Shown: in pieces, positions 12,669-28,648 of the stretch
Numbering within the stretch: position 1 is the stretch's first letter
Layout: each line of letters opens with the position of its first letter
DNA from: a virus
Length of the DNA stretch: 43,435 bases
IMG/VR virus record: IMGVR_UViG_3300025030_000200
Span: 1-43,435 of that record
Strand: one strand, 5' to 3'
Translations under genes and position numbers: made by a program
Notes under the pieces: model-generated
The model's input: the letters and a program-made list of their open reading frames with translations, nothing else
What the model was told of the DNA's origin: nothing
Database searches by the model: none

Positions 12669-12979
12669 GACTCCTCCTCCAGGCGGTCCCTGACGCTGTC
12701 CCTGACGCTGTCCCAGAAGCTGTCCCTGACGCTGTCCCAGACGCGGGCATCGACGCTGGCCCAGACGCTGTCCCCGACGCTGGCCCAGGCGCTGGCCCAG
12801 GCGCTGTTCCTGACGCTGTTCCTGACGCTGGCCCAGACGCGGGCATCGACGCTGTACCAGACGCTGGCCGTGACGCTGGCCCAGACGCGGTCACTGGCGC
12901 TGCCCCTGACGCTGGTCCTGCCGCCGGCCCCGACGCGATCCTTGACGCGGGCCTTGACGCACGGTCCCGGGTCGATCAC
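12665..12979 (-). CDS. Tetrapeptide-repeat microgene IV-7 (last of array IV)
   Basis: 104 residues (26 tetrads), the longest complete member. It starts at GTG 12979, overlapping the stop of IV-6 as GTGA. Head VIDPGPCV, then tetrads of the V-[W/R/G]-[D/A/T/N]-[S/R] type, tail RLEEES whose codons give GGAGGAGGAG before the RusA start. The segment GAGGRTSVRGSASDRVW is shared with II-3, and the head VKARVKDRV with IV-6. Function unknown. Confidence 0.6.
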   Translation of the reverse strand: MIDPGPCVKARVKDRVGAGGRTSVRGSASDRVWASVTASVWYSVDARVWASVRNSVRNSAWASAWASVGDSVWASVDARVWDSVRDSFWDSVRDSVRDRLEEES

Positions 12980-13242
12980 GGCTCCTCCTCCAAGCTGGCC
13001 CCGACGCTGTCCCAGACGCTGTCCACGACGCGGGACCAGACTCTGGCCCCGACGCGGTCCCCGACGCCGGCCGTGACGCTGTCCCAGACGCGGGCATCGG
13101 CGCTGGCCCAGACGCTGTACCAGACGCTGTGCCGGACGCCGGCCGTGACGCGGTCCCAGCCGCTGGTCCAGACGCTGGTCACGGCGCTGGTCCTGACGCG
13201 ATCCTTGACGCGGGCCTTGACGCACGGTCCCGGGTCGATCAT
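12976..13242 (-). CDS. Tetrapeptide-repeat microgene IV-6
   Basis: 88 residues (22 tetrads) from ATG 13242. Head MIDPGPCV, tail SLEEEP. The C-terminal part (VTAGVGDRVGARVW and what follows) is nearly the same as in III-2, about 7.7 kb away, and VWYSVWASADARV recurs in III-3. This makes it a mosaic of segments seen elsewhere. Start and stop are both in overlaps with neighbours. No known fold is recognised. Confidence 0.6.
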   Translation of the reverse strand: MIDPGPCVKARVKDRVRTSAVTSVWTSGWDRVTAGVRHSVWYSVWASADARVWDSVTAGVGDRVGARVWSRVVDSVWDSVGASLEEEP

Positions 13243-13433
13243 GACTCCTCCTCCAAGCTGGCCCAGACGCGGTCCCCGACGCCGAACCAGACGCGGTCCC
13301 AGACGCTGTTCCTGACGCTGGCCCAGACGCGGGCATCGGCGCCGAACCAGACGCGGTCCCAGACGCTGGCCCCGACGCGGTCACTGGCGCCGCCCCTGAC
13401 GCTGGCCAAGACACACTCCCCGGGGTCGATCAT
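13239..13433 (-). CDS. Tetrapeptide-repeat microgene IV-5
   Basis: 64 residues (16 tetrads). Head MIDPGECV (Glu in place of the usual Pro), a variant also found in IV-3 and IV-4. The first 28 residues match those of IV-4 almost exactly (CVLASVRGGA-[S/G]-DRVGASVWDRV), so the two are recent tandem copies. Tail SLEEES supplies the ribosome binding site of IV-6. Confidence 0.6.
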   Translation of the reverse strand: MIDPGECVLASVRGGASDRVGASVWDRVWFGADARVWASVRNSVWDRVWFGVGDRVWASLEEES

Positions 13434-13660
13434 GACTCCTCCTCCAAGCTGGCCCAGAGGCTGTCCCAGACGCTGGTCCAGACGCTGCGCCAGACGCGAT
13501 CCCTGACGCTGAACCAGACGCCGAACCCGACGCTGGTCCTGCCGCCGGCCCTGACGCGGTCCCTGACGCTGTCCCCGACGCGGTCCCAGACGCTGGCCCC
13601 GACGCGGTCACCGGCGCCGCCCCTGACGCTGGCCAAGACACACTCCCCGGGGTCGATCAC
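13430..13660 (-). CDS. Tetrapeptide-repeat microgene IV-4
   Basis: 76 residues (19 tetrads) from GTG 13660. It contains a 94-bp stretch (13478-13571) identical to 23783-23876 in member II-2, more than 10 kb away. That stretch encodes the GGRTSVGFGVWFSV segment. Head VIDPGECV, tail SLEEES. A GTG start is used where the last tail codon before TGA ends in G. Confidence 0.6.
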   Translation of the reverse strand: MIDPGECVLASVRGGAGDRVGASVWDRVGDSVRDRVRAGGRTSVGFGVWFSVRDRVWRSVWTSVWDSLWASLEEES

Positions 13661-13875
13661 GACTCCTCCTCCAAGCTGTCCCTGGCGCTGGCCCAGACGC
13701 TGTCCCAGACGCTGGCCCTGACGCTGGTCCCGACGCTGGCCCAGGCGCTGCCCCTGACGCTGGTCCTGACGCTGGTCCAGACGCCGGCCCCGACCCTGGC
13801 CCTGACGCGGGTCCCGACGCCGGCCCAGACGCTGCCCCTGACGCTGTCCCTGACACACTCCCCCGGGTCGATCAT
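13657..13875 (-). CDS. Tetrapeptide-repeat microgene IV-3
   Basis: 72 residues (18 tetrads) from ATG 13875. Head MIDPGECV. The body is rich in Arg, Gly and Thr tetrads (VRGSVWAGVGTRV, VRTSVRGSAWASV) and poorer in Asp than its neighbours. Tail SLEEES. Coupled on both sides by four-base overlaps. Confidence 0.6.
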   Translation of the reverse strand: MIDPGECVRDSVRGSVWAGVGTRVRARVGAGVWTSVRTSVRGSAWASVGTSVRASVWDSVWASARDSLEEES

Positions 13876-14030
13876 GACTCCTCCTCCAGGCTGTCCCCGA
13901 CGCTGGTCCAGACGCTGTCCCGGAAGCTGTCCCAGACGCGGTCCCAGGCGCTGTCCCAGACGCTGACCCAGACGCGGCCACTGACGCTGGCCAAGACGCG
14001 GGCATCGACGCACGGCCCGGGGTCGATCAT
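13872..14030 (-). CDS. Tetrapeptide-repeat microgene IV-2
   Basis: The shortest member, 52 residues (13 tetrads). Head MIDPGPCVDARV, body with VWVSVWDSAWDRV, one Phe replacing the tetrad Val (DSFRDSV), tail SLEEES. The minimum size suggests that head, tail and about ten tetrads are enough for whatever is selected. Confidence 0.6.
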   Translation of the reverse strand: MIDPGPCVDARVLASVSGRVWVSVWDSAWDRVWDSFRDSVWTSVGDSLEEES

Positions 14031-14221
14031 GACTCTTCCTCCAGGCTGTTCCAGACGCGGTCCCCGACGCTGGTCCAGACGCTGGCCAAGACGCCGAACC
14101 AGACGCTGTCCCTGACGCGGTTCCAGACGCGGTCCCCGGCGCTGTCCCAGACGCTGACCCAGACGCGGCTCCCGACGCCGATCCTGACGCTGTCCCTGGC
14201 GCACGGCCCCGGGTCGATCAT
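14027..14221 (-). CDS. Tetrapeptide-repeat microgene IV-1 (first of array IV)
   Basis: 64 residues (16 tetrads). It follows the DUF6745-like gene, its ATG 14221 starting just before the end of that gene's TAG (14224-14226), and lacks the ATGA overlap on this side. Its head MIDPGPCARDSVRIGVGSRV matches that of II-4 except for one Ala/Val change. Here the tail codons read GAGGAAGAG, still a usable ribosome binding site for IV-2. Confidence 0.6.
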   Translation of the reverse strand: MIDPGPCARDSVRIGVGSRVWVSVWDSAGDRVWNRVRDSVWFGVLASVWTSVGDRVWNSLEEES

Positions 14222-14223
14222 GA

Positions 14224-15120
14224 CTACGTTTCGGCCACGTATTCGATTGAATCCTCCCTGAACGTCCAGGCCCGAGCGCTCTCGCATGTCGTCACCGTAG
14301 TGGGTACTCGCAGCGTGTAGAAGGCCCCCGTCGAGGGGCAAACCACCTTCAGCAGCCGAACGGGCTCCACGTCGATGGCTGCCGGGATCTCGCAGAGTTC
14401 CATGTCGCCGTCCGCATGGATCTGTTTCGCTCCCAGGTCGAGCAGCGCACGAGAGTAGCCGATCTCCCGCAGGAGCACGCGACGCAGCTCCGCATTCGTC
14501 TCCGACAGCAACCACTCGCTCTTCCATTCCGAGCGCTTGACCGCCCCGATGTAGTCGGGCAGACGGGTCCCATGGATCGCGTAGACGCCCCACCCGTCGG
14601 GGTATTCGATGGCGTGGCGACCGTCCGCGTCCAAGCGGCCCTCCGCGTCCCGCAGAAGAACCGTCGGCCGCTCGGACACCCAGCAGACGTTCTGATGGGG
14701 CAGGATCCACCCGGCGCTTTTGGCCAGTTCCCAAAGACCATCGAGCGCTTTCGTCTCCTCGCGCAGCCCGCAGACCTCTGCGAAGTAGGCGTAGAACGCG
14801 AGCCATTCCGCGTCGTGCTGCCCGTAGCCGCAATCATGGACGCCCGCCTTGAGTGCGGCCTCGCGAGCGCGGGTTCGCTCCTTCGCCGGGGCAAACTGAG
14901 CGACCACATCGGCACGCCGCCGAAGCATGGCGTGCGGCGAATCGCACCATTCGATCAGTTTGGGCGGCTCCAGGCCGGCGCGTTCGTAGACGAGACGGAT
15001 GGCGGCCTCGGCCCGCGGTCGGTCTGCGGGCTCGGTGGACAGCCCGATGGCCGTCCACTCCGTCACGTAGTCCGGCATCCGGGCTTCCTGCTCGGGTGTC
15101 AGCGATTCAATCCGCGACAT
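14224..15120 (-). CDS. DUF6745-like protein
   Basis: 298 residues. The opening LTPEQEARMPDYVTEWTAIGLSTEPADRPRAEAAI and the later RHAIEYPDGWGVYAIHGTRLP fit a widespread uncharacterised family that I recognise as DUF6745. Members occur in phages, plasmids and bacteria, often beside a small protein like the one just upstream. The role is unknown. The start overlaps the upstream gene by 14 bases, so the pair is co-translated. It has normal composition, unlike the array that follows it. Confidence 0.6.
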   Translation of the reverse strand: MSRIESLTPEQEARMPDYVTEWTAIGLSTEPADRPRAEAAIRLVYERAGLEPPKLIEWCDSPHAMLRRRADVVAQFAPAKERTRAREAALKAGVHDCGYGQHDAEWLAFYAYFAEVCGLREETKALDGLWELAKSAGWILPHQNVCWVSERPTVLLRDAEGRLDADGRHAIEYPDGWGVYAIHGTRLPDYIGAVKRSEWKSEWLLSETNAELRRVLLREIGYSRALLDLGAKQIHADGDMELCEIPAAIDVEPVRLLKVVCPSTGAFYTLRVPTTVTTCESARAWTFREDSIEYVAET

Positions 15121-15445
15121 TGCGCCACCCCTCCGGCTCGTACTCCCGCTGGATGACCACCCGGTACTTCCCGGCGGGGAGTTCGATGTCTGCGTGCTCT
15201 TCGTGCCGCAGCGCGGACTTTTCGAGCACTTCGATGAAGCGGGAGACCTCGGCCATCGGAGCGGTGATCTCGTAGTCCATCACGGCCGCTCCAACGTCGA
15301 AGCGGTGGGCGTGCCCCGTGATCTCCCCCAACGCGAGCGTCACCTGGCCCGGGGCCTTGGCGACCGCGCCCGCCGGGATCGACGCAACGGGGAAGAGCCC
15401 CACGTCTCCCTGCCGGTACATCCTGATCTTCTTGGTTCGTGACAT
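15107..15445 (-). CDS. Small conserved phage protein paired with the DUF6745-like gene
   Basis: 112 residues from ATG 15445, chosen because GGAGGT lies six bases upstream; an ATG at 15457 is possible but has a poorer site. Recognisable pattern: MYRQGDVGLFPV, GEITGHAHRF, LRHEEHADIELPAGKYRVVIQREYEP. The HxH and RHEEH clusters are conserved in this family and could bind metal. No reaction is known. It is the first gene after a strong promoter and a 100-base leader. Confidence 0.6.
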   Translation of the reverse strand: MSRTKKIRMYRQGDVGLFPVASIPAGAVAKAPGQVTLALGEITGHAHRFDVGAAVMDYEITAPMAEVSRFIEVLEKSALRHEEHADIELPAGKYRVVIQREYEPEGWRNVAD

Positions 15446-15480
15446 GTCGACCTCCATCGTTTTCGGAGAAAGAACGCGAC

Positions 15481-15517
15481 CAGCCGGAGCGGCTTTGCAG
15501 GAGGAACGTTCCGGCTG
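15481..15517 (-). promoter_or_regulatory. Inverted repeat in the leader of the DUF6745 pair
   Basis: A perfect 8-bp inverted repeat, CAGCCGGA and TCCGGCTG, separated by 21 bases, lies in the transcribed leader between the promoter and the start codon. It could form an RNA hairpin or bind a regulator. No known riboswitch was recognised in this short leader. Confidence 0.3.
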
Positions 15518-15558
15518 ATCGCTTCCGAGATCAAAGGCTCCCGGTGGGCCTAGACTGA

Positions 15559-15587
15559 AAGATAGGCTCCGCTCGCTTCGCTGTCAA
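15559..15587 (-). promoter_or_regulatory. Sigma70-type promoter P4
   Basis: On the minus strand: TTGACA (15587-15582), 17-bp spacer, TATCTT (15564-15559). The -35 is perfect and the -10 matches four of six. It overlaps the stop codon of the upstream gene and drives the 15445 gene, the DUF6745-like gene, array IV and rusA. TATCTT also occurs as the -10 of two other minus-strand promoters here. Confidence 0.75.
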
Positions 15588-15913
15588 GCGGTTTCCTCGC
15601 GAAACTTGAAATCGGACAGGATGTCGTCCGCGGCGTCGACGATCATGTCCATGTCGCCGCCGGTACGGAGAAGGTCGAAGAGCAGCCCCACGGCCCGCTC
15701 TCCGGCGTAACGGTCGCGGTAGGCCGGGCAATCATCGTGGCGGTGCGAGTCCTGGTGCCGCTTGCAGTAGTCCTTCAGGTAGGATCCGCAGAGCGGGCAA
15801 TTCGGGAAATCCTCTTCGTAGTAGTGCTTCTGTGCGCATCCGCGCGAGGTGCACAGGACGAAGTCTCCTTCGGCAAGACACTGGGCGTCGATTTCGCGAT
15901 CTTCCTTGCTCAC
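15584..15913 (-). CDS. Small Cys/His-rich protein, zinc-binding candidate
   Basis: 109 residues. Cys and His residues are spaced as in zinc ribbons: C-x7-C early on, then CPLCGSYLKDYCKRHQDSHRHDDC. The C-terminal third is helical and acidic (LLFDLLRTGGDMDMIVDAADDIL). The start overlaps the previous stop (ATGA). One of several small CxxC proteins in this block. Specific function unknown. Confidence 0.6.
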   Translation of the reverse strand: MSKEDREIDAQCLAEGDFVLCTSRGCAQKHYYEEDFPNCPLCGSYLKDYCKRHQDSHRHDDCPAYRDRYAGERAVGLLFDLLRTGGDMDMIVDAADDILSDFKFREETA

Positions 15914-16233
15914 GGGTGAAGCCTCCCTTCCAGCCCGACGATCAACTCCGCCGCCTCATCATACTGCCCCTGCCGGGCTGCCACGAAAGCGGCCAGGGCG
16001 AGCCGGAGGGTCTGCGGGATGTCTTCCTCGTCCGGCCCGGAGGGCTGGAGGAGGGGGAGCGCGAGGCGGATGGCCGCGATCAGGACGGTTCCGACTTCGT
16101 AGTCCGTCTCCTCGTCGGACCACGCCTTCTGGTATTCCTCCGGGGATTCGAGCCCCTTGAGAACCGCCTGTTCCTTGGCGTCGTAGTGTTCGATGGCTTC
16201 GGTCAGCCCTCGAAATACGTCGATATTCTGCAT
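15910..16233 (-). CDS. Hypothetical acidic helical protein
   Basis: 107 residues, rich in Glu, Ala and Leu, predicted all-helical (FRGLTEAIEHYDAKEQAVL, LRLALAAFVAARQGQYDEAA). No motif recognised. AGGAGGACATC precedes the start. It lies between the SSB-like gene and a zinc-type protein in one transcription unit. Confidence 0.55.
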   Translation of the reverse strand: MQNIDVFRGLTEAIEHYDAKEQAVLKGLESPEEYQKAWSDEETDYEVGTVLIAAIRLALPLLQPSGPDEEDIPQTLRLALAAFVAARQGQYDEAAELIVGLEGRLHP

Positions 16234-16242
16234 GATGTCCTC

Positions 16243-16773
16243 CTAGAAAGGGACGGGGTCGTTTTCGGTGGGCGGGGTCTCCTGGTGGTCCGGTGTGTCG
16301 CTGATGCGATCCTTCACGCGGACGTACGGCTGAGGCGTGAACATTGGATAGGGGCTGCCGTCCGGGAGCTTGGGGACCGGGAGCGCCGAAACGACATTCG
16401 CCCAAATCTGCCCTTCCCGTCCTGCGCGGTGGACAATCTGAAGTTGACAGGGGACCCCGATCACCGATTCGATGTCGAATCGCCGCTCTTCGGCGGGCGT
16501 GAAGTCGCGCCCCCTCCATGGAACCAGAAACTTGCGGAGGTTCGAGTTGAATTTGAGGGTCGACGGAAAGTTCCGCCGCGGCCTGAAATTCTCCTCGGGC
16601 CTGCGGGGTAGTGGGACGGGGATTTCCCAAACGAGTTGGACCTCCCGAACCAGCGTCACCACCCCCTTGTAGGTTTTTTCGACCATCCCCCGGTCGATAG
16701 TGTCGATACTCCAGGCGAGGTGTATTCCCTCGGGCGCGGGGTCAAAGTCTTTCCCGACAATCCACAGTGGCAT
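16243..16773 (-). CDS. Phage ssDNA-binding-protein-like
   Basis: 176 residues. The order of features fits a family of phage single-stranded DNA binding proteins: a beta-rich start (MPLWIVGKDFDPAPEGIHLA), a central segment RRFDIESVIGVPCQLQIVH, then WANVVSALPVPKLPDG and a Pro/acidic C-terminus ending PTENDPVPF. An acidic tail ending in aromatic/Pro residues is typical of SSBs and recruits partners. It probably protects ssDNA during replication with DnaB. I assign it by resemblance only; a decisive profile search was not possible. Confidence 0.5.
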   Translation of the reverse strand: MPLWIVGKDFDPAPEGIHLAWSIDTIDRGMVEKTYKGVVTLVREVQLVWEIPVPLPRRPEENFRPRRNFPSTLKFNSNLRKFLVPWRGRDFTPAEERRFDIESVIGVPCQLQIVHRAGREGQIWANVVSALPVPKLPDGSPYPMFTPQPYVRVKDRISDTPDHQETPPTENDPVPF

Positions 16774-16774
16774 T

Positions 16775-16963
16775 TCAATTCCTCCTTACGTCCACGTCTG
16801 CTTTGTGCTTTGACAGGTAGCAGCAGAGGGCGCAGACAATGCCGACTCCGCTGACATGGTAGGCCGAGGCCTCCGGCCGTTCGTGACAGAGAACGCATTC
16901 GACGGGTGTTGGCTGCTCGGCTTGGCGCCGATACCCTCGAAGTGCATCGAGGTAGGTCTTCAT
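16775..16963 (-). CDS. Small zinc-ribbon-like protein
   Basis: 62 residues with CVLCHERPEAS and CALCCYLSKH, two CxxC pairs about 20 residues apart, as in a minimal zinc ribbon. It overlaps the upstream gene by ATGA and is spaced one base from the SSB-like gene. Likely a small nucleic-acid or protein-binding factor; the target is unknown. Confidence 0.55.
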   Translation of the reverse strand: MKTYLDALRGYRRQAEQPTPVECVLCHERPEASAYHVSGVGIVCALCCYLSKHKADVDVRRN

Positions 16964-17151
16964 GCTTCCCCCTTTCTGGCTTTGTTCCATGCCCGGGTCA
17001 CGGCGCGGCGCCGAGCCAGGCAGATTTCGCAGCATGTGCGACCGGTAACGGCCTTCCGCTGCCAGCAGCCAACACAAACGCCGTCCGCCCGGGCCTGCTT
17101 GTATCGCCGGGCGTCGTACCGTAACTCTCGCGGCTTCCGTTTTCTCGTCAT
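16960..17151 (-). CDS. Small basic zinc-finger-like protein
   Basis: 63 residues, very rich in Arg and Lys, with CVGCWQRKAVTGRTCCEICLARRRA, that is two CxxC pairs. It begins only about 12 bases from the predicted transcription start of P3, with GGGAGA as ribosome binding site inside the palindromic operator. Its layout resembles the N-terminal half of the 26876-27208 protein. Likely DNA or RNA binding. Confidence 0.55.
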   Translation of the reverse strand: MTRKRKPRELRYDARRYKQARADGVCVGCWQRKAVTGRTCCEICLARRRAVTRAWNKARKGEA

Positions 17152-17154
17152 GAG

Positions 17155-17168
17155 ATCTCCCGGGAGAT
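17155..17168. promoter_or_regulatory. Perfect palindromic operator ATCTCCCGGGAGAT
   Basis: A 14-bp perfect palindrome covering the predicted start of transcription of P3 and ending four bases before the start codon of the first gene. Its half TATCTCCC recurs in promoter P2 and five times at 20021-20106, so it is probably the binding site of a phage regulator. Confidence 0.6.
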
Positions 17169-17169
17169 A

Positions 17170-17198
17170 AGTATAGGCTCCGGGCTAGCCTTTGTCAA
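17170..17198 (-). promoter_or_regulatory. Sigma70-type promoter P3
   Basis: TTGACA (17198-17193), 17-bp spacer, TATACT (17175-17170). This is the strongest promoter by consensus in the window. It overlaps the end of the upstream nuclease gene and serves the small zinc-type genes and the SSB-like gene. A palindromic operator sits over the start site. Confidence 0.85.
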
Positions 17199-18159
17199 AC
17201 GGAAAGCAGGCGTTCCACCAGGGGCAATAGTTGCAGGGATACCCCTTTCCTGTGTACCCCGCCGGGATCCCCGGGTCCTGCTCTGATCGCGCCGCCTTGG
17301 CCAGTTCAGCGAGCCGCGCGAGCCCTTCGAGAGCCTTCGACTGATCGTACAAAACCTCGAAGGGGAAAACGAACGGTTCGCCCTTTGTGGCATCCTTCAC
17401 GACGTAGACCAGAAACGCGACAGCCGTTCCCGTGGCGTGCATGTACAGGTTCAACTGCGCCCGGTGCTCGTCGCGGCCGGGCTCGTTCCGCTTCAGCATC
17501 CAGCCCATGGCCCGGGAATTGATCGTCTTCAATTCCATCATTCCGACCCCTCGGAGGTGAAGGATCAGGTCGATTCGGCCGGTGATCTTCTCGCCGTCGT
17601 GCTCGATTTCGACGGGGACTTCCCGTTCAATCTCGGCGCCGAGTGTTTCGAGAATCCCGGCGAGCCAGTCTTCGGCCGCATGACCGAGGCCAAAGGACAT
17701 GAGGCTATCCGGCGTCGGCGGGTTCGTGGGGGGCACGTTCCTGAGCGAGTAGTAAACTGCCCTCTGACATTTTCCCACATCGGAAACGGACGGGTTTCGT
17801 TTGATGAGATCGCCGCGGACCTTGGCGCGTTCCTCCTTCTTGCGTCGTTCTGCTTCGGTCAGGGCTGCTTCGAAAATTGCACGGATTTGCTCCGCGCGTG
17901 GGGCGCCCGGGTAGCGATCCAGAACGTCTTTCAGATGCATCGCGTCTCCTTTTCGGTTATGCGAGATTTTCGAGGGAAAACCACCAGGCTTCCGACGCTT
18001 CCTTTCTGCGGATTCCGTCCCACCGGTTGATTTGCTTCTGGATCGGCCGAGCCCTGCGCGCGGTTTCGAATCTGTCTCGAAGTACTTCTCCATCTGTTTC
18101 CAAAGGGTGAGCGCTTCCCGGACTGCCTCGAGGTACTGCGGGAGTTCTCTGGAGTCCAT
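17185..18159 (-). CDS. Cas4/RecB-like PD-(D/E)XK nuclease with Fe-S cysteine set
   Basis: 324 residues from ATG 18159 (GGAGGAAAGAG upstream). Nuclease core: GRID197LI, then MME209LK211TIN, then the QLNLY motif around Gln235. Four cysteines, Cys131 (GKC) and Cys309, Cys312, Cys318 (CNYCPWWNAC), match the 4Fe-4S cluster arrangement of Cas4/AddB-type nucleases. Such enzymes resect DNA ends in recombination or replication. Residues 1-73 are a charged extension outside the usual domain. An internal ATG at 17940 with AAGGAGACGCG in front would give a 251-residue form holding the full domain, so two products are possible. Confidence 0.75.
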   Translation of the reverse strand: MDSRELPQYLEAVREALTLWKQMEKYFETDSKPRAGLGRSRSKSTGGTESAERKRRKPGGFPSKISHNRKGDAMHLKDVLDRYPGAPRAEQIRAIFEAALTEAERRKKEERAKVRGDLIKRNPSVSDVGKCQRAVYYSLRNVPPTNPPTPDSLMSFGLGHAAEDWLAGILETLGAEIEREVPVEIEHDGEKITGRIDLILHLRGVGMMELKTINSRAMGWMLKRNEPGRDEHRAQLNLYMHATGTAVAFLVYVVKDATKGEPFVFPFEVLYDQSKALEGLARLAELAKAARSEQDPGIPAGYTGKGYPCNYCPWWNACFPFDKG

Positions 18160-18172
18160 CTCTTTCCTCCTT

Positions 18173-18236
18173 GGCGCGGTCGCGCCTGTCAACGAAAGGG
18201 GCGGGAGTAACCCCCGCCCCCCCGTTCGCAGGGCGA
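18173..18236 (-). repeat. Intergenic element copy A (hairpin before the nuclease gene)
   Basis: About 64 bases nearly identical to 19472-19532. On the minus strand it has a GGGGCGGG/CCCGCCCC hairpin with a 7-base loop (18220-18198) followed by TTTCG, then TTGACA, then GGCGCG-AC-CGCGCC (18186-18173) directly before the ribosome binding site. It may act as an attenuator or processing site. Confidence 0.7.
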
Positions 18237-18239
18237 AAG

Positions 18240-18587
18240 CTATCGGATTGGAATGATGTCCGCGAAGTCAGTCAGGAGAGCGACGAGTTCGCGTTCCGTG
18301 ATGAGAAGTCGCCGGAGGGCCGCGTTTGCAGCGCGGGGCCCGCAAACCTTCGCGATGAGCGTCAAGGTTTCGCCAAGGGAACCACCGCCGGCGGATTCGT
18401 CGGGGTCCATCCGCTTTCCCCCGCGCAAGAAGGTTACTCCGTAAATTCGCGTTTTTGCGTCGAAGAGTCCGGATCCGCTCGACAGTTCGAACGCTACGCC
18501 GTTTCCGCGTCCGTAGCATTCGACTTCGGGAGTCATGAAATTGGTTCCACGGAAAGCCTTGCGGAATTCTTTCTGAGGGTTCGGCAT
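18240..18587 (-). CDS. Hypothetical protein with RRLL-ERELV C-terminal motif
   Basis: 115 residues from ATG 18587 behind GAGGAGGAGC. The body is beta-rich with Gly and Ser (YGRGNGVAFELSSGSGLFD). The last 24 residues, RRLLITERELVALLTDFADI, match the C-terminus of the protein at 19538-19747 (RRLLAGPISERELVSLLDSL). The two look like paralogues or sharers of a docking helix, and each is followed by one of the two intergenic elements. Function unknown. Confidence 0.55.
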   Translation of the reverse strand: MPNPQKEFRKAFRGTNFMTPEVECYGRGNGVAFELSSGSGLFDAKTRIYGVTFLRGGKRMDPDESAGGGSLGETLTLIAKVCGPRAANAALRRLLITERELVALLTDFADIIPIR

Positions 18588-18607
18588 ATTGCTCCTCCTC
18601 CTTCGCG

Positions 18608-18880
18608 TTAGACGGATTCGCCGAAGGCCGTATGGTTTTTCCGGTACTTGTACGGACAGAATTCGATTTCCCCCTCGTTCGGGCCGAGATTGTCCGCTTG
18701 CATCAAAAAGCCCGTAACGGTTTTTCCGTTTGCTTTCAGTCGCGCCGGAATGAAAAACCAAGTGTTAGGGAGCCCACAACGGCCTGCCCTGATCTTTCCA
18801 TCGGGGCAGAATGCCCGAAACCGCCTGAGCATTCGGCCGGAGGGATAACAGACTGCCTCCGGGTCGATTGATGTCCGCAT
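18608..18880 (-). CDS. Hypothetical protein
   Basis: 90 residues, started at ATG 18880 behind AAGGAGAAGC. It is basic and aromatic-rich with three scattered cysteines (AVCYPSG, AFCPDGKIRAGRCGLP, EFCPYKYRKN). It seems a compact beta-rich fold. No family recognised. Confidence 0.5.
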   Translation of the reverse strand: MRTSIDPEAVCYPSGRMLRRFRAFCPDGKIRAGRCGLPNTWFFIPARLKANGKTVTGFLMQADNLGPNEGEIEFCPYKYRKNHTAFGESV

Positions 18881-18910
18881 GTTGCTTCTCCTTTCGATGG
18901 ACGCGGCCGG

Positions 18911-19450
18911 TCAGAAGATTCCACGTTCCGCGAGAATTCCGAGCGGTTCTTCGTCGCTTGCGTCACATGCCGAAATTGCAGCGCGCAAATCGGAACCCTC
19001 GGCGACGCGCAGGCGCCCGTCTCCGTTGCACCACCGGCACGGTTCTGCTTGCGGCGCACAATCGGGACAGACGAATGCGTGGGTGACAACGGGACCTTGC
19101 TTCGAGCCGCTGAGTCCGACATTCCGCCCCTTTGTGGCAACGGCAATCCACTCCGGGGGAATTGGTCGCCAGTCCGGAAGGAAGCCTACCATCCACGGGT
19201 TGGCCGTCTGTCCCGTGAGAAGGCGTCGCGCATAGACGAGCACGCGCCCTTGACACCAAAAACAATTCCGACTCCCGGTCTCCTGATCGAATCCGGAACC
19301 GGAACACTGCACGCAGCGGGTCGCGAACCCGCATGCGGGGCAACCGTCGCCCCTGTGGAAGCGTGCAGCCTCATGTGGCTCCATGTCACCATGGCTGACC
19401 CCCCAAGAATCCCACGGTTCCTCGCATTTTGCGCAAAGAATGTCGCTCAT
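18911..19450 (-). CDS. Multi-CxxC zinc-ribbon protein (DnaJ-zinc-finger-like)
   Basis: 179 residues with five Cys pairs: CAKCEEPW, CPACGFATRCVQCSGSGF, CFWCQGRV, CPDCAPQAEPCRWCNGDG. CxxCxGxG units (CVQCSGSG, CRWCNGDG) are as in the DnaJ zinc domain. It lacks a J domain. It probably binds two or more zinc ions and could act in folding or as a nucleic-acid binding factor. ATG 19450 has a long GGAGGAGGAGGAG site. Confidence 0.6.
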   Translation of the reverse strand: MSDILCAKCEEPWDSWGVSHGDMEPHEAARFHRGDGCPACGFATRCVQCSGSGFDQETGSRNCFWCQGRVLVYARRLLTGQTANPWMVGFLPDWRPIPPEWIAVATKGRNVGLSGSKQGPVVTHAFVCPDCAPQAEPCRWCNGDGRLRVAEGSDLRAAISACDASDEEPLGILAERGIF

Positions 19451-19471
19451 GTTACTCCTCCTCCTCCTTGT

Positions 19472-19532
19472 GGCGCGGTCGCGCCTGTCAACAAAGGGGC
19501 GGGAGTGACCCCCGCCCCCCGTTCGCAGTGCG
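19472..19532 (-). repeat. Intergenic element copy B
   Basis: Second copy of the element at 18173-18236, differing by a few bases. Hairpin at 19518-19496 and GGCGCG-AC-CGCGCC at 19485-19472. It lies between the 19747 gene and the zinc-ribbon gene, again directly in front of the ribosome binding site. TTGACA occurs but no -10 follows at the right distance. Confidence 0.7.
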
Positions 19533-19537
19533 ACGGC

Positions 19538-19747
19538 CTAGAGGACGTATCGCGGGGTCCGCCCCCCTTGGGGGGGCTTGGTTCGCAGGGCTCCGGTCGG
19601 CAGGATCTCGGCCAAGCTGTCCAAGAGGGAAACTAGTTCCCTCTCCGAGATCGGCCCGGCCAGAAGGCGCCGAACCACGTACTGCTTCGCGATGCGATGC
19701 GTGAGCACGTCACTATCGTGGACTAGTGCCCAAGTTGCTGTGGTCAT
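19538..19747 (-). CDS. Small protein, first gene after promoter P2
   Basis: 69 residues from ATG 19747 with GGAGGATACGACC upstream. N-terminal half TWALVHDSDVLTHRIAKQYV, then RRLLAGPISERELVSLLDSLAEILP, a helix pair shared with the 18240-18587 protein. The first position after a regulated promoter suggests an early or regulatory role, but no DNA-binding motif is certain. Confidence 0.55.
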   Translation of the reverse strand: MTTATWALVHDSDVLTHRIAKQYVVRRLLAGPISERELVSLLDSLAEILPTGALRTKPPQGGRTPRYVL

Positions 19748-19792
19748 GGTCGTATCCTCCCGTTTGCTGGCCGGTCCATCCGGCCTACAGAC

Positions 19793-19821
19793 AAGATATA
19801 TCTCCCGTGTCTGATTGTCAA
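19793..19821 (-). promoter_or_regulatory. Sigma70-type promoter P2 with TATCTCCC half-site
   Basis: TTGACA (19821-19816), 17-bp spacer, TATCTT (19798-19793). The spacer and -10 contain the half-site TATCTCCCG (19798-19806 on the plus strand), so a regulator bound there would block RNA polymerase. It drives the 19747 gene and those after it. Confidence 0.8.
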
Positions 19822-20311
19822 GGGCCCTCGCCGTGTCTACCCCTCGCACTGATAGCCCATACCGCATAGTTCATTCGGACTGTAATCAAATCTTTACACT
19901 GTCTCACGTGAGACACCGCAAGCTCTCATTTCTGAGAGCCCTACCGCCCGCCCGCCTGCCTACGACAGAGAGCCAACACTCCCCAACTACCACACGTACG
20001 GTCCCACGCCTCCTCCCGCGTATCTCCCATGATAACCCAGTATCTCCCACGAATAGACTAATTCTCCCATTCCCTCCATATCTCCCATCCCATACCGTAT
20101 CTCCCATCTTATGCCCCTCTAGCATACGAGGGGGGGCCCCAGAATATGCGCAGAGAGGGTAGTTACCTCTCTTCTTTCTTTCGCAGAAAAATAGTTAAGT
20201 TTTACATTCGCACGTGCGCGCGTTGTATTGAACGTGTACGCGCGGGGGTGGGAGGTACTTTTGTGTTCTTGGGGTTTGGCGAGGCCTAGGCGGGGTTAGG
20301 TGCGGTTTTGG
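19822..20311. other. Non-coding control region, possible replication origin
   Basis: About 490 bases without a credible gene. It holds a 14-bp perfect palindrome GTCTCACGTGAGAC (19901-19914), a perfect 7-bp hairpin GCTCTCA-TTTC-TGAGAGC (19922-19939), five TATCTCCCA-type repeats (20021-20106), an AGAGAGG/CCTCTCT hairpin (20152-20172), and AT-richer patches near 19881-19900 and 20173-20205, in contrast to the GC-rich surroundings. It separates two halves of the minus-strand block. An origin, a main operator region or a transcription end are all possible. Confidence 0.5.
20021..20106 (+). repeat. Five direct repeats of TATCTCCCA, about 20 bp apart
   Basis: Copies start at 20021, 20041, 20061 (ATTCTCCCA), 20079 and 20098, so spacing is 20, 20, 18 and 19 bp, close to two helical turns. 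Regular phasing fits cooperative protein binding on one face of DNA, as with iterons or multi-site operators. The same sequence is the half-site of the palindrome at P3. Confidence 0.7.
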
Positions 20312-20692
20312 CTAGTGCGGGATGGCCTTGGGGGAGATGTGGCTTTTTATGGGCGTCATACGCTTCTTGGGGGCCCTTCTAGTTTGGTTGGCGACGCGGT
20401 CCCAGACGCTGCGCCAGACGATGGTCCTGACGCTGAACCAAACGCTGGCATCGACGCCGGCCCTGGCGCTGGCCAAGACGCTGCCCCTGACGCTGTTCCA
20501 GGCGCTGGCCTCGACGCTGTTCCAGACGCTGTCCCTGACGCGGTCCCTGACGCGGGCATCGGCGCTGGCCCAGACGCTGTACCAGACGCTGTCCCAGGCG
20601 CTGGCCTCGACGCTGTTCCAGACGCTGTCCCTGACGCGGTCCCTGACGCGGTCCCTGACGCGGTTCCAGACGCACGGTCCCGGGTCGATCAT
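20312..20692 (-). CDS. Tetrapeptide-repeat microgene III-3 (terminal, no SD tail)
   Basis: 126 residues. Head MIDPGPCV and 24 or so tetrads, then it runs into a basic non-repeat tail ending KSHISPKAIPH instead of LEEE. It is the only member without the tail and the only one with no gene behind it. This supports the idea that the tail exists to serve the next gene. It contains an internal duplication of about 60 bp (near 20497-20557 and 20594-20654), so recent growth is visible. Confidence 0.55.
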   Translation of the reverse strand: MIDPGPCVWNRVRDRVRDRVRDSVWNSVEASAWDSVWYSVWASADARVRDRVRDSVWNSVEASAWNSVRGSVLASARAGVDASVWFSVRTIVWRSVWDRVANQTRRAPKKRMTPIKSHISPKAIPH

Positions 20693-20919
20693 AACTCCTC
20701 CTCCAAGCTGTCCCCGGCGCTGTCCACGACGCGGTCCCAGACTCTGGCCCCGACGCGGTCCCCGACGCCGGCCGTGACGCTGTCCCAGACGCGGTCCCCG
20801 ACGCCGGCCCCGACGCGGTTCCAGACGCGGTCCCCGGCGCTGGTCACGACGCCGAACCAGACGCTGTCCCTGACGCGGTCCCTGACGCTGTTCCTGACGC
20901 ACGGCCCGGGGTCGATCAT
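20689..20919 (-). CDS. Tetrapeptide-repeat microgene III-2
   Basis: 76 residues (19 tetrads) from ATG 20919. Tail SLEEEL: the final codon is TTA before TGA. The part VTAGVGDRVGARVW is shared with IV-6, and about 75 bases around 20713-20790 are almost identical to 13021-13095. Coupled by ATGA on both sides. Confidence 0.6.
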   Translation of the reverse strand: MIDPGPCVRNSVRDRVRDSVWFGVVTSAGDRVWNRVGAGVGDRVWDSVTAGVGDRVGARVWDRVVDSAGDSLEEEL

Positions 20920-21122
20920 AACTCCTCCTCCAAGCTGTCCCCGACGCTGGTCCAGACGCGGTCCCAGACGCCGAACCAGACGCGGTCCCAGACGCGGTCC
21001 CTGACGCTGGCCAAGACGCCTAACCAGACGCTGGTCCTGCCGCTGGCCCCGACGCGGTTCCAGACGCGGTCCCCGGCGCTGTCACTGACGCTGGCCTTGA
21101 CGCACGGTCCCGGGTCGATCAT
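20916..21122 (-). CDS. Tetrapeptide-repeat microgene III-1 (first of array III)
   Basis: 68 residues (17 tetrads) from ATG 21122, overlapping the stop of the 21439 gene. The segment ASGRTSVWLGVLASV combines pieces seen in IV-1 and II-3. Tail SLEEEL. Unlike arrays II and IV, this array follows rather than precedes the replication genes. Confidence 0.6.
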   Translation of the reverse strand: MIDPGPCVKASVSDSAGDRVWNRVGASGRTSVWLGVLASVRDRVWDRVWFGVWDRVWTSVGDSLEEEL

Positions 21123-21439
21123 TTGCCCGGAGTTGTCGGAACGACCCCGGTCCATGACCCGGTCGCAGACAACACAATGGCCGGGACGGCGTTCGGTTCG
21201 AGCGGACCGGCCTGGTGAAACAAACGATCTGCGCCAATCATCGCCAACGATGACCAAAGATCCCGCGTGTCCTGCCACGTGTGGTCCTCCCCATGAAGGT
21301 CCACCAACAGCGCGTGAAGGCAAGCGAGCGGAGACTGCTTCAACTGCTCCACCCGGTCCTTCTCCGTCATCCAGCGCTCCCGCGCAAGGCTGCGCTCGAC
21401 GATCTCATCATCCGTCATGGGGTTCGCTTTCACTCTCAT
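21119..21439 (-). CDS. Hypothetical protein
   Basis: 106 residues from ATG 21439 (GAGGCCAC upstream, overlap with previous stop). The N-terminal half is charged and helical (MTDDEIVERSLARERWMTEK), and a central part CLHALLVDLHGEDHTWQDTR is His/Asp-rich. The end GSWTGVVPTTPGK looks like a beta hairpin. No family recognised. It is followed directly by array III. Confidence 0.55.
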   Translation of the reverse strand: MRVKANPMTDDEIVERSLARERWMTEKDRVEQLKQSPLACLHALLVDLHGEDHTWQDTRDLWSSLAMIGADRLFHQAGPLEPNAVPAIVLSATGSWTGVVPTTPGK

Positions 21440-21636
21440 GTGGCCTCCTCGATGGTGGTCTGTCTCGCATCCTGCTCCAGCGGCGGTTTCCGTTTCCGGC
21501 GTGGCAGCCGAATCGTCTCGACATTGTCCTTCGTGATCCGGTAGAACTGGCGCATCCCTCGATCCCAGATGACCACCTTCCACCCATCGGCGTCCATTTC
21601 GAAATCGACGACCTTGAAGCGAGCAGTCGTCGTCAT
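21436..21636 (-). CDS. Small hypothetical protein
   Basis: 66 residues from ATG 21636, overlapping the GroES stop (TGATG). Beta-rich start (ARFKVVDFEMDADGWKVVIW), then a basic patch (RLPRRKRKPPLEQDARQ). A GTG 24 bases upstream would extend it. No known family. Confidence 0.5.
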   Translation of the reverse strand: MTTTARFKVVDFEMDADGWKVVIWDRGMRQFYRITKDNVETIRLPRRKRKPPLEQDARQTTIEEAT

Positions 21637-21938
21637 CACCCGGCCCGTTTGGTCACGCACAAAATCTCCTCCTCACGAAGAATCGTCACTCGTTCGCCAT
21701 CGAACTCCAGATCCGTTCCGCCCCACTTCGAAATCAACACCCGATCCCCCGAAAACACCGCGAGCGGAATGATCGTCCCACGATCGGTGAACCGACCAGC
21801 ACCAACGGCGAGAACGATTGCCTCCTGCGGCTTCTCCTTGGCCGTCTCCGGGATCACGATCCCACCATCCGTCACTTCCAACGCTTCGATCCTGCGCACG
21901 ATGACGCGGTCATGCAGCGGTGTCACGTCGAGCTTCAT
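21636..21938 (-). CDS. groES: GroES-type co-chaperonin
   Basis: 100 residues, the normal length of GroES. PLHDRVIVRRIEA starts the fold; the mobile loop VTDGGIVIPETAKEKP carries the GGIVI segment that binds GroEL. VLAVGAGRF and AVFSGDRVLISKWGGTDLEFDGERVTILREEEILCV complete the barrel. Phages carrying GroES use it with host GroEL to fold their own proteins, mainly capsid. GGAGGCCACATG is the start site, eight bases after DnaB. A second, Cys-containing GroES-like protein is encoded at 11774-12346. Confidence 0.9.
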   Translation of the reverse strand: MKLDVTPLHDRVIVRRIEALEVTDGGIVIPETAKEKPQEAIVLAVGAGRFTDRGTIIPLAVFSGDRVLISKWGGTDLEFDGERVTILREEEILCVTKRAG

Positions 21939-21946
21939 GTGGCCTC

Positions 21947-23260
21947 CTACTTGTTGGTCCGCCGACTCGTCGGCAGAAATTTCTGCGTCTCGAACTTGTG
22001 CTCCAGGAAGATCCGCCCGGTCGGTCCCTGCCGGTTCTTCGCGACGGCAAGCTCGGAGAGCCCCTGGTTGTCCGGTGTCACCTCGTAGTAGTCGTCGCGG
22101 TGAAGAAGCAACACCACGTCGGCGTCCTGCTCGATACTCCCGGAATCCCGAAGATCCGAAAGAGCCGGCCGTTTCTCGCTGCGAAGCTCGGACTGCCGGT
22201 TGAGCTGAGCCGCACAAAGAACCGCACAGTCGAGTTCCTTCGCCAGATTCTTCATCGCCTGTGAGGCGAACGAAACCTCGGCAGTCCTGTTCTCGAAACC
22301 ACGCTCGGAACGGATCATCCCGAGGTAATCCACGACGACGAGATCCGGTTTCCACTCCCCCGCCGAGTGCGCTCGGCAAAGATCGACGAGCTGGTCTACC
22401 GTGAGCGACTGATCGTAGAACATGAACGCCGCTTCCCGGAGCCGGCTCCGCGCTTGTCCCACTTTCTCCCAGGGGACGTTGATGTTGTGTTCGAGCTGCG
22501 CCATCGTCGTCCCCGTCATCGCCGAAAGCAGCCGGAGCTGAAGCTGCTCCTGCGACATCTCCAGAGAAATGAACGCGACCCGCTTCTTCTGCGACATCGC
22601 GGCGTGACCGGCAATCTGAAGACAAAGCACCGTCTTCCCCATCGACGGACGAGCCCCAAGGACGATGAGCTGCTGCCGCTTGAGCCCGAACAGAATGGCA
22701 TCGAGATCCGGAAGTCCCGTCTCTACGGCCAACCGCTTGCCGAATTCGCCAATCTCGATGTCGCGAAGCAGGTCGTCGATACCGGAATCCATCGGGCGCA
22801 ACGTCCGCAGAAACCCACCGGCGTCCACCAGATCCAACGCTCTTCGAAGAGTCTTGCCAATCGTTCCGAGTTCCTGACCCTCCTTCGCTCGCTCGTGCGC
22901 CACGAGCGTCGTCTCGGCGATCTGCTTCCGCGCATGATCCGCCCGGATCGCCTTCATGAAACCTTCCGTGTGAACAGCCGAGGGCGAAGATTTGGCAATC
23001 GCGTCGATCATCGCCGCTTGCACGAGATTCGTCCCCATGAGTTCGAGTTCTCGCCGAACGAGATTCGGCTCGCCCGCCAGAGGCCCAACCCGCAGGAGCG
23101 CTTCCCAGAGCATCCCATGGTCCCGAAACCGGAAATGCTCGGCGAGAAACCCGAGCCGCCGGGCAAGATTGATGGTCTCCTGGGGGAAGGCCATGCAGGC
23201 GGCCAACACCTCTTGCTCGGTCTGCTTCTGCCGCAATTCGACAACTGCCGGATCGATCAT
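21947..23260 (-). CDS. dnaB: DnaB-type replicative helicase
   Basis: 437 residues. N-terminal helical domain (residues 12-110), linker helix, then a RecA-like motor: Walker A GARPSMGKT (202-210), the ISLEMSQEQL segment, Walker B DLVVVDYLG (306-314), a sensor region CAAQLNRQSELR with RPALSDLRDSGSIEQDAD, and the arginine finger region AKNRQGPTG. It unwinds DNA at the fork. No primase or polymerase gene was seen, so host enzymes probably complete the fork. Its first codons, ATGATCGATCCGG, match the head of the repeat microgenes that precede it (one mismatch in 13 bases). Confidence 0.93.
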   Translation of the reverse strand: MIDPAVVELRQKQTEQEVLAACMAFPQETINLARRLGFLAEHFRFRDHGMLWEALLRVGPLAGEPNLVRRELELMGTNLVQAAMIDAIAKSSPSAVHTEGFMKAIRADHARKQIAETTLVAHERAKEGQELGTIGKTLRRALDLVDAGGFLRTLRPMDSGIDDLLRDIEIGEFGKRLAVETGLPDLDAILFGLKRQQLIVLGARPSMGKTVLCLQIAGHAAMSQKKRVAFISLEMSQEQLQLRLLSAMTGTTMAQLEHNINVPWEKVGQARSRLREAAFMFYDQSLTVDQLVDLCRAHSAGEWKPDLVVVDYLGMIRSERGFENRTAEVSFASQAMKNLAKELDCAVLCAAQLNRQSELRSEKRPALSDLRDSGSIEQDADVVLLLHRDDYYEVTPDNQGLSELAVAKNRQGPTGRIFLEHKFETQKFLPTSRRTNK

Positions 23261-23463
23261 GGCTCCTCCTGCAAGCTGACACAGACGCTGGCTCTGACGC
23301 TGATTCTCGCGCCCTCCCCGACGCTTGCCCAGACGCGGCGCCCGACGCTGTCCCAGACGCTGCCCCTGACGCCGTTCAAGACGCCGTCCTCGACGCCGCG
23401 CGCGACGCGGCTCCCGACGCCGATCCTGACGCTGTCCCTGACGCACGGCCCCGGGTCGATCAT
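23257..23463 (-). CDS. Tetrapeptide-repeat microgene II-4 (before dnaB)
   Basis: 68 residues (17 tetrads). Head MIDPGPCVRDSVRIGVGSRV shared with IV-1. It has the most diverged body (VARGVEDGVLNGV, GEGARISVRASVCVS) and the tail is LQEEP, with CAGGAGGAG serving as ribosome binding site for DnaB. The overlap with dnaB is ATGA. Confidence 0.6.
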   Translation of the reverse strand: MIDPGPCVRDSVRIGVGSRVARGVEDGVLNGVRGSVWDSVGRRVWASVGEGARISVRASVCVSLQEEP

Positions 23464-23726
23464 GACTCTTCCTCCAGGCTGTCCCTGACGCTGGTCCAAA
23501 CGCTGTTCCAGACGCTGGTCCAGACGCGGTTCCTGACGCGGACCGCGACGGGTGCCCAGACGCTGTTCCAGACGCGGTCCACGACGCGGTCCCCGACGCG
23601 GGTCCAGACGCCGATCCAGACGCGGTCCCAGACGCGGTCACTGGCGCTGCCCCTGACGCTGGTCCTGCCGCCGGCCCCGACCCTGGCCCTGACGCCGCCC
23701 CTGACGCACGGTCCCGGGTCGATCAC
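23460..23726 (-). CDS. Tetrapeptide-repeat microgene II-3
   Basis: 88 residues (22 tetrads) from GTG 23726. It shares GAGGRTSVRGSASDRVW with IV-7 (an identical stretch of about 53 bases) and the VRNRVWTSV part with the single member at 27.4 kb. Tail SLEEES. Confidence 0.6.
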   Translation of the reverse strand: MIDPGPCVRGGVRARVGAGGRTSVRGSASDRVWDRVWIGVWTRVGDRVVDRVWNSVWAPVAVRVRNRVWTSVWNSVWTSVRDSLEEES

Positions 23727-23917
23727 GGCTCCTCCTCCAAGCTGGCCCAGACGCGGTCCCAGACGCTGTCCCCGACGCGGTCCCAGACGCTGCGCCAGAC
23801 GCGATCCCTGACGCTGAACCAGACGCCGAACCCGACGCTGGTCCTGCCGCCGGCCCTGACGCGGTCCCTGACGCTGGCCGTGACGCGGGCCTTGACGCAC
23901 GGTCCCGGGTCGATCAC
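23723..23917 (-). CDS. Tetrapeptide-repeat microgene II-2
   Basis: 64 residues (16 tetrads). It carries the 94-bp stretch 23783-23876 that is identical to part of IV-4. Tail SLEEEP, where the codon CCG before TGA makes a GTG start for the next member. Confidence 0.6.
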   Translation of the reverse strand: MIDPGPCVKARVTASVRDRVRAGGRTSVGFGVWFSVRDRVWRSVWDRVGDSVWDRVWASLEEEP

Positions 23918-24108
23918 GACTCCTCCTCCAGGCTGTCAATGACGCTGTGCCTGACGCGGGTCCCGACGCCGTACCTGACGCTGGCCGCGACGCGGTCCCC
24001 GACGCGGTCCCAGACGCTGGCCTCGACGCTGGCCTCGACGCTGTCCCAGACGCTGTACCTGACGCTGTTCCCGACACTGTCCCCGACCCACGGCCCGGGA
24101 TCGATCAT
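23914..24108 (-). CDS. Tetrapeptide-repeat microgene II-1 (first of array II)
   Basis: 64 residues (16 tetrads) from ATG 24108, overlapping the stop of the small membrane protein gene. Head MIDPGPWV (Trp replaces Cys), as in the single member at 27.4 kb. Tetrads include VEASVEASV and VRYGVGTRV. Tail SLEEES. Confidence 0.6.
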   Translation of the reverse strand: MIDPGPWVGDSVGNSVRYSVWDSVEASVEASVWDRVGDRVAASVRYGVGTRVRHSVIDSLEEES

Positions 24109-25751: not shown

Positions 25752-25960
25752 CACCACCCTCCTTCGCGGGCAAGGTCATGAACCTCTTGCGCAATGGTCA
25801 TGGAGTCCATCGGCCTCGTCGCCGCCTCCGCCATCGCGACGGCGAAGAGGGCGAGGCGAATGATCTCGGACACCTCTGCTTGGCCGAGTATCACTTTCCT
25901 TGGAGCCCATTCGTAGCAGGAGTACTCTTCCGCAATCTCCCTCACGCTGCGCTCGGTCAT
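25751..25960 (-). CDS. Hypothetical helical protein
   Basis: 69 residues from ATG 25960, overlapping the Lar-like stop. It is nearly all helix (SVREIAEEYSCYEW, VSEIIRLALFAVAMAEAATR, TIAQEVHDLAREGGW). Small size and place suggest an accessory early protein. Confidence 0.5.
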   Translation of the reverse strand: MTERSVREIAEEYSCYEWAPRKVILGQAEVSEIIRLALFAVAMAEAATRPMDSMTIAQEVHDLAREGGW

Positions 25961-26199
25961 TCTGGCCTCCGGTTCCACCACGCCCTGATTTCGGCACGCG
26001 GTCCGCTGTGAGGCGTGGCGGCGCCGCAGAACACGCCAACGTCGCCCCAGTCATCGACCACGCTCGAGCACTCGACGACGCTCGAGCACTCGACGACGTA
26101 GGTTGTGGTCCCGTACATCGCGACTGGCGAGTATCGCGCCTTCCGGCCGCAGAAGGGGCAGGGTAGCAGCTTCTTCGGCTTCGGCTTCGGCTTCGTCAT
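25957..26199 (-). CDS. Lar-like restriction alleviation protein with split zinc knuckle
   Basis: 80 residues. A Lys/Pro repeat (KPKPKPKK) precedes LLPCPFCGRKA, the hallmark of the Lar family, and the end AEIRAWWNRRP is the usual closing motif. Lar-type proteins reduce host restriction of unmodified phage DNA; most phage members are untested. The second zinc pair normally reads CxxCG. Here ECSS is followed by a repeat VVECSS and about 11 further residues before CGA, so the pair is separated. The 18-bp direct repeat near 26063-26098 explains the duplication. Confidence 0.65.
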   Translation of the reverse strand: MTKPKPKPKKLLPCPFCGRKARYSPVAMYGTTTYVVECSSVVECSSVVDDWGDVGVFCGAATPHSGPRAEIRAWWNRRPE

Positions 26200-27208: not shown

Positions 27209-27402
27209 CTCATTTCGATCCCTTCCACCAGGTCGACGAGTTCCCTGGCTTTTCGCGTGGCTTCTTCCGGCGAAAGGCCCTCGTCGATGTACATCGCGTA
27301 TGCCCGGTCGAAGAGCGGTTCCGGAGTCAACGTCGCGGCGATGACTTCGGCGGGCGTGTTGTTCGGAATCTGCGGCGGCGGCGGAATGAACATCTCGATC
27401 AT
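27205..27402 (-). CDS. Small hypothetical protein after the single repeat microgene
   Basis: 65 residues. MIEMFIPPPPQIPNN, then a helical part ending EEATRKARELVDLVEGIEMR. ATG 27402 overlaps the stop of the upstream microgene, and its first eight bases (ATGATCGA) equal the microgene head. No family recognised. Confidence 0.55.
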   Translation of the reverse strand: MIEMFIPPPPQIPNNTPAEVIAATLTPEPLFDRAYAMYIDEGLSPEEATRKARELVDLVEGIEMR

Positions 27403-27617
27403 GACTCTTCCTCCAGGCTGTTCCAGACGCGGTCCACGACGTTGGCCCTGACGCTGGTCCAGACGCGGTTCCTGACGCGGTCCGCGACGGGTGCCCAGAC
27501 GCTGGCCCAGACGCGGTCCGCGGCGCTGGCCCCGACGCTGGTCAAGACGCTGTCCCTGACGCGGCCCCCGACCCACGGTCCCGGATAGAGCTTCCTAGAA
27601 TGCAGGCTCGTCGTCAT
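27399..27617 (-). CDS. Tetrapeptide-repeat microgene I (single copy)
   Basis: 72 residues (18 tetrads), with a modified head: MTTSLHSRKLYPGPWV, where KLYPGPWV takes the place of MIDPGPWV. ATG 27617 lies inside the end of the upstream gene, overlapping it by 23 bases. The segment VWAPVADRVRNRVWTSV is shared with II-3, and the tail SLEEES precedes the next gene in the usual way. It shows how a member enters an operon: the downstream start region is kept and the old start is lost. Confidence 0.55.
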   Translation of the reverse strand: MTTSLHSRKLYPGPWVGGRVRDSVLTSVGASAADRVWASVWAPVADRVRNRVWTSVRANVVDRVWNSLEEES

Positions 27618-28422: not shown

Positions 28423-28648
28423 GTCACTACCCCCGAAAATGGTGCCAACCCCCCGCCGGGTGTGACGAGCCGAAGCCAAAGGCTGGGCTCCCGGCAGGGG
28501 GCCGACTCACTAGCTGTTCATGTGCGGAGGCAACTCCGACTCGTCACGCCCCAAAGATACGGCTCGGGTTCTACGATGTCAACGCGCCAACGTGGCACAC
28601 TTGACGCAAGTTTGCCAAAACGGCACACCGGGTGTACCCTCGTTCCTC
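28423..28648. promoter_or_regulatory. Divergent intergenic region with two inverted repeats
   Basis: About 225 bases between the start of the minus block and the terminase genes. It contains GCCA-ACG-TGGC (28586-28596) and TGCC-AAAAC-GGCA (28613-28625), inverted repeats that may be operators. A weak plus promoter TTGCCA-N17-TACCCT (28612-28640) would place transcription start almost at the GTG 28649. No clear minus promoter was found. No gene is supported here. Confidence 0.35.

Follow-up and report, generated by a model that had tools for sequence, protein, structure and literature searches.

A candidate iteron-type replication origin with shared promoter sites in the early region of a phage from IMG/VR

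Examination of the virus record IMGVR_UViG_3300025030_000200 (positions 1 to 43,435, the 43.4-kb stretch referred to here as the window) showed that the eight-base word TATCTCCC occurs in it exactly six times, with every copy located either in an array of repeats within a non-coding gap or at one of two promoters, P2 and P3. This set of sites is real and non-random, and it is predicted most likely to serve one phage protein. The reading that we favour, tentatively and at a little under an even chance, is that the gap functions as a replication origin or control region of the iteron type, and that the protein binding it acts in addition as a repressor of P2 and P3.

According to this proposal, a phage-encoded DNA-binding protein would occupy the five same-strand repeats of the array, situated approximately two helical turns apart, and would help to melt the adjacent AT-rich DNA, allowing the phage DnaB helicase to load. 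The same protein would also sit on an inverted copy of the word, located between P3 and the first gene behind it, and on a single copy at the -10 box of P2, and with its accumulation it would turn down both P3 (small zinc proteins and a single-stranded DNA-binding protein, SSB) and P2 (a nuclease). The proposal builds on the spacing and orientation of the sites, their overlap with promoters, the adjacent DNA with its low predicted stability and the replication genes that flank the gap; that a single protein binds all of the sites, opens the DNA and acts as a repressor is what we infer from these features.

Distribution of the word and its placement at P2 and P3

The exact copies of TATCTCCC are found at positions 17162 (minus strand), 19799, 20021, 20041, 20079 and 20098. 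An order-2 Markov model built on the window minus its long tandem repeats gave an expectation of 0.5 copies, and no more than 3 were obtained in any of 200 runs; in 200 simulated windows, no 8-mer was present four times without overlap within 100 bp. Allowing up to one mismatch resulted in 28 matches against 25 expected, which is no enrichment, and the signal therefore rests on the exact word and on where its copies sit. The original prediction held that a similar density of the motif elsewhere would speak against a common regulator; this was checked, and TATCTCCC was found nowhere else in the window.

The early part of the window, from about 28.5 to 12.7 kb, is read leftward, and five sigma70-like promoters combining TTGACA with TATCTT or TATACT were identified in it, all on the minus strand, at 19821 (P2), 17198 (P3), 15587 (P4), 27758 and 28582. 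Both P3 (17170-17198, TTGACA-17-TATACT, 11 of 12 matches) and P2 (19793-19821, TTGACA-17-TATCTT, 10 of 12 matches) are credible as promoters. The word is absent from the remaining three promoters of the same type, which argues that it is not a general operator of early promoters.

At P3 the word forms an inverted repeat on the minus strand, TATCTCCC|GGGAGATC (17154-17169), which spans the interval from the -10 box to the start codon (ATG at 17151) and has an inner 14 bp that is perfectly symmetric. This inner portion is the palindrome ATCTCCCGGGAGAT (17155-17168) that had been reported over the start of P3, and it was found to be perfect as described. Perfect 14-bp palindromes number six in the window, this one included, so that it is not rare in itself, and its right arm doubles as a Shine-Dalgarno-like GGGAG. 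The half-site previously reported in P2 was located at 19799-19806 on the plus strand, where it reads GGGAGATA along the direction of transcription and lies directly upstream of the -10 box, abutting it. Thus the P3 site follows a -10 box and the P2 site adjoins one, as would be expected of operators. As P2, P3 and P4 have a common GGAG just 5' of the -10 box, the match at P2 is partly to be expected, and P3 provides the stronger case. The chance that both copies outside of the array would land in the 250 bp taken up by the five promoters is about 3e-5, a figure that is too favourable for P2 because of this common GGAG.

The array and its non-coding gap

The array (20021-20105, plus strand) comprises five direct half-sites, four of them exact copies of TATCTCCC and one, at 20061, the variant ATTCTCCC. 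All are on the same strand with start-to-start spacings of 20, 20, 18 and 19 bp, in agreement with the five half-sites 18-20 bp apart that the original prediction had placed in this control region. Iteron origins are recognised by at least three same-strand direct repeats spaced by approximately 20 bp, and five are present here. The gap holding the array (19748-20311) extends over 564 bp without a credible gene and is the longest of the early region, the next being 236 bp.

Nearest-neighbour stability calculations placed the three least stable locations of the whole 43 kb within this gap, at lengths of 30, 40, 60 and 100 bp. Of all 40-bp stretches in the window, the least stable (20169-20208), a candidate unwinding element, is 72% AT, against 63% GC overall, and begins approximately 60 bp to the right of the last repeat of the array; AT-rich, easily melted DNA adjoining the repeats is a second feature by which iteron origins are recognised. 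Direct repeats two helical turns apart beside the easiest-melting DNA give the region the anatomy of an iteron origin and not that of an operator alone. An origin here is further supported by the genes around the gap, namely those for a DnaB-type replicative helicase (21947-23260, minus strand, about 1.6 kb from the gap), a PD-(D/E)XK or Cas4-like nuclease downstream of P2 (17185-18159, minus strand) and an SSB-type protein (16243-16773, minus strand), the third gene behind P3. The sites are placed as the earlier idea of one regulator acting on P2, P3 and the control region would have them, while its framing as purely an operator network is not what the direct repeats beside this DNA point to.

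Also located in the gap is TGTCTCACGTGAGACA (19900-19915), a perfect 16-bp palindrome and the window's sole one of that length, the halves of which match TATCTCCC at 6 of 8 positions; any role assigned to it would be conjectural. A hairpin, AGAGAGGGTAGTTACCTCTCT, followed by a T/C-rich tail (20152-20172, plus strand) resembles a terminator, but no plus-strand gene leads into it and such hairpins as a class are not above chance. A coding explanation of the array was rejected, the minus-strand open reading frame (ORF) over it being unsupported and the 18-20 bp spacing being out of frame, as was an RNA element, the minus-strand fold being no better than those of shuffled sequences (z 0.35) with no match in Rfam.

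Alternative readings and a second possible origin

A number of observations weigh against an iteron origin at this location. The P2 copy overlaps the consensus of its promoter family, and low stability is to be expected in any long non-coding gap of a GC-rich phage, so that it supports an origin without proving one. No DnaA box (TTWTNCACA) was found in the gap, the sole one in the window being at about 7.65 kb. GC skew at fourfold sites did not support an origin at 20 kb, its replication component having if anything the wrong sign. No recognisable initiator was identified among the genes behind P3 or P2; the inverted repeat of the iteron word is present at P3, but the genes that follow it resemble zinc proteins and an SSB.

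A further point concerns a gene at 27595-28479 (minus strand), a possible initiator or replisome-organiser gene on the basis of its layout, with no family match and a structure model too poor to use (predicted local distance difference test, pLDDT, 41). It contains two 18-bp repeats 21 bp apart (28007-28045) together with an inverted copy (28007-28078 overall), and these repeats constitute a second possible origin. Comparison with contig L053, which encodes a helicase 41% identical over 249 residues to that of the window and an SSB-type protein of the same family, showed that the gene just upstream of the L053 helicase matches a replication initiation profile (phrog_270, E 2e-23) and holds four TGTCACAG repeats 21 bp apart, which is the layout of lambda. 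The 27595-28479 gene, with its weak internal repeats, is similar in plan to this L053 gene, and both likewise count against an origin in the gap.

These repeats lend weight to the account in which the sites are an operator network and nothing else, with an early repressor on the array and at both promoters shutting off early transcription, the array acting as a cooperative upstream block or as a stoperator-like sink, and replication beginning elsewhere, for example within the 27595-28479 gene. The overlap of the sites with the core of two strong sigma70-like promoters agrees with this account, which we hold to be doubtful, though by no means improbable. Against it stands the position of the array, which is upstream of the P2 -35 box by 200 to 290 bp, contains no identified promoter and is situated in the easiest-melting DNA of the window. 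Nor was a repressor of the usual kind found among the early proteins scanned: no match to a helix-turn-helix repressor was obtained with Pfam, PHROG or NCBIfam, in line with the original prediction, although the repressor may be of an unknown kind. Alternatively, the array alone may be functional, with the matches at P2 and P3 arising by coincidence from sequence that belongs to promoters and ribosome-binding sites (GGAG ahead of the -10 box and GGGAG ahead of the ATG). The GGAG common to P2, P3 and P4, the Shine-Dalgarno-like right arm of the P3 repeat and the six 14-bp palindromes of the window can all be cited for such a coincidence. Even so, we consider it unlikely, given that the remaining 40 kb holds no further TATCTCCC, that neither a promoter nor a ribosome-binding signal accounts for the left arm of the P3 palindrome, and that the joint chance is about 3e-5, the common GGAG not yet being allowed for in that value.

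Two further accounts centre on small DNA-binding proteins. The omega proteins of Gram-positive plasmids bind tandem heptads and also regulate transcription, and tandem direct sites together with promoter sites for one small regulator correspond to the omega layout. A partition (centromere-like) or packaging site whose small DNA-binding protein doubles as a transcriptional regulator could draw on the first P3 gene (16960-17151, minus strand), which encodes a small basic protein of 63 amino acids with two CxxC pairs; it is very improbable, as the scanned proteins included none resembling ParA or TubZ and the genes seen give no indication of a plasmid-like lifestyle. The same P3 protein, which has no Pfam or confident PHROG match, is a candidate binder of the sites. 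There is a small likelihood that one small zinc-binding early protein marks the origin through half-site iterons and also represses the nuclease and SSB operons, being neither a classical initiator nor a classical repressor; if true, this would tie the supply of replication and recombination functions to the occupancy of the origin.

Neighbouring genes, relatives and known systems

The third P3 protein matched NCBIfam NF046043, named "phage replication initiation protein, NGO0469 family", with 101.9 bits (cut-off 75). It has an acidic tail ending in PF and a beta-rich predicted fold, and among its relatives from IMG/VR (80 loci, L041-L120) an acidic stretch with PF at the C-terminal end was found in 75 of the 80, mostly as DDDIPF, DSDIPF or DEDIPF. 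An acidic PF tail is the means by which bacterial SSB proteins recruit partners. The structure model (50 sequences, pLDDT 84) contains five strands, the fourth of them preceded by a helix, an order that by our own reading of the model appears to be that of the oligonucleotide/oligosaccharide-binding fold; the best matches in a Foldseek search with this model, none of them significant, included RPA and SSB chains. From these features the protein is probably an SSB, and the possibility of this gene being the initiator that would complete the analogy with plasmids was rejected on account of the SSB-like tail and predicted fold, despite the NCBIfam name. That name is probably wrong. A 2007 paper on prophages listed NGO0469 under replication initiation on local similarities of 26-32%, with its text suggesting that it is probably a primase (PMC1931599). 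If confirmed, the SSB-type features of the NGO0469 family would correct the family name at NCBI. The 80 SSB-family loci showed no synteny with the window save for a distant helicase in five, and no TATCTCCC array.

Among other genes, the first P2 gene (19538-19747, minus strand) encodes 69 amino acids with no family, and a GroES-like co-chaperonin (21636-21938, minus strand; Cpn10, E 3e-29) is situated directly after the helicase gene. A protein resembling the Lar restriction alleviation protein (25957-26199, minus strand; TIGR03655 and PF14354, both below curated cut-offs) is possibly a counter-restriction gene. Approximately 14 small overlapping ORFs were identified on the minus strand at 12683-14225, 20312-21130, 23257-24108 and 27399-27617. 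Most of them follow the pattern MIDPGP..(xSVx)n..SLEEE; a 12-bp repeat underlies them, and they are joined stop to start through ATGA. This 12-bp repeat was also found in unrelated phage contigs (L024, L032), inside their DUF6745 genes; the DUF6745 gene of the window itself (14224-15120) does not contain it and is directly followed by an array of the small ORFs.

The sole close relative in IMG/VR is a sister contig, IMGVR_UViG_3300025012_000185 (39,155 bp, 98-100% identical). It is circularly permuted with respect to the window, its left end overlapping the right end of the window and adding 5.9 kb, and the two describe a circle of about 49.4 kb. The sister contig lacks window positions 13572-23876 (10.3 kb), a segment exactly bounded by a 94-bp exact repeat (13478-13571 and 23783-23876), and has no helicase, no array and no TATCTCCC. 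This absence may be due to assembly collapse at the 94-bp repeat or to a real recombination, of which collapse is the more likely because the helicase is lost. Searches of IMG/VR with the nuclease, helicase, terminase, portal, DUF6745 protein and possible initiator returned the sister contig or distant genes only, with no further phage that contains this region among them, and the helicase had no match in GTDB genomes. A search of IMG/VR for the pattern of the array (two array words at array spacing) returned 11 contigs, none similar to the window at the DNA level and none with more than 3 tandem copies.

In Mycobacteriophage L5, the sites of a single repressor are scattered one by one genome-wide as a stoperator and operator network, at promoters and elsewhere. 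The window is alike in that one site is repeated at promoters and elsewhere, but differs in having five tandem sites, none scattered beyond these locations, and no repressor gene found. The origin of lambda is defined by iterons beside an AT-rich tract, and DnaA boxes are not a feature of it as described (PMC7466680). The likeness to the lambda and Stx phage origins with their O-protein iterons lies in four to six iterons by an AT-rich tract and in the probable use of a DnaB-type helicase; the lambda iterons are inside gene O, whereas the array of the window is in a non-coding gap and its word is found again at two promoters. In the RepE system of the F plasmid, direct iterons are located in the origin (oriS) and an inverted repeat between the promoter and the initiator gene (PMC13028717). 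Like oriS, the window has direct repeats in an AT-rich candidate origin and an inverted repeat with the same word between a promoter and its first gene, with the differences that the gene following the inverted repeat does not encode a recognised initiator, that no DnaA box was seen and that this is a phage and not a plasmid. The arrangement is therefore ordinary in kind, iteron control being known from plasmids, and this case would be a new example. It shows that a candidate origin can be located even where no initiator is recognisable, and it offers a testable candidate origin and regulator site for a phage without close sequenced relatives beyond the sister contig.

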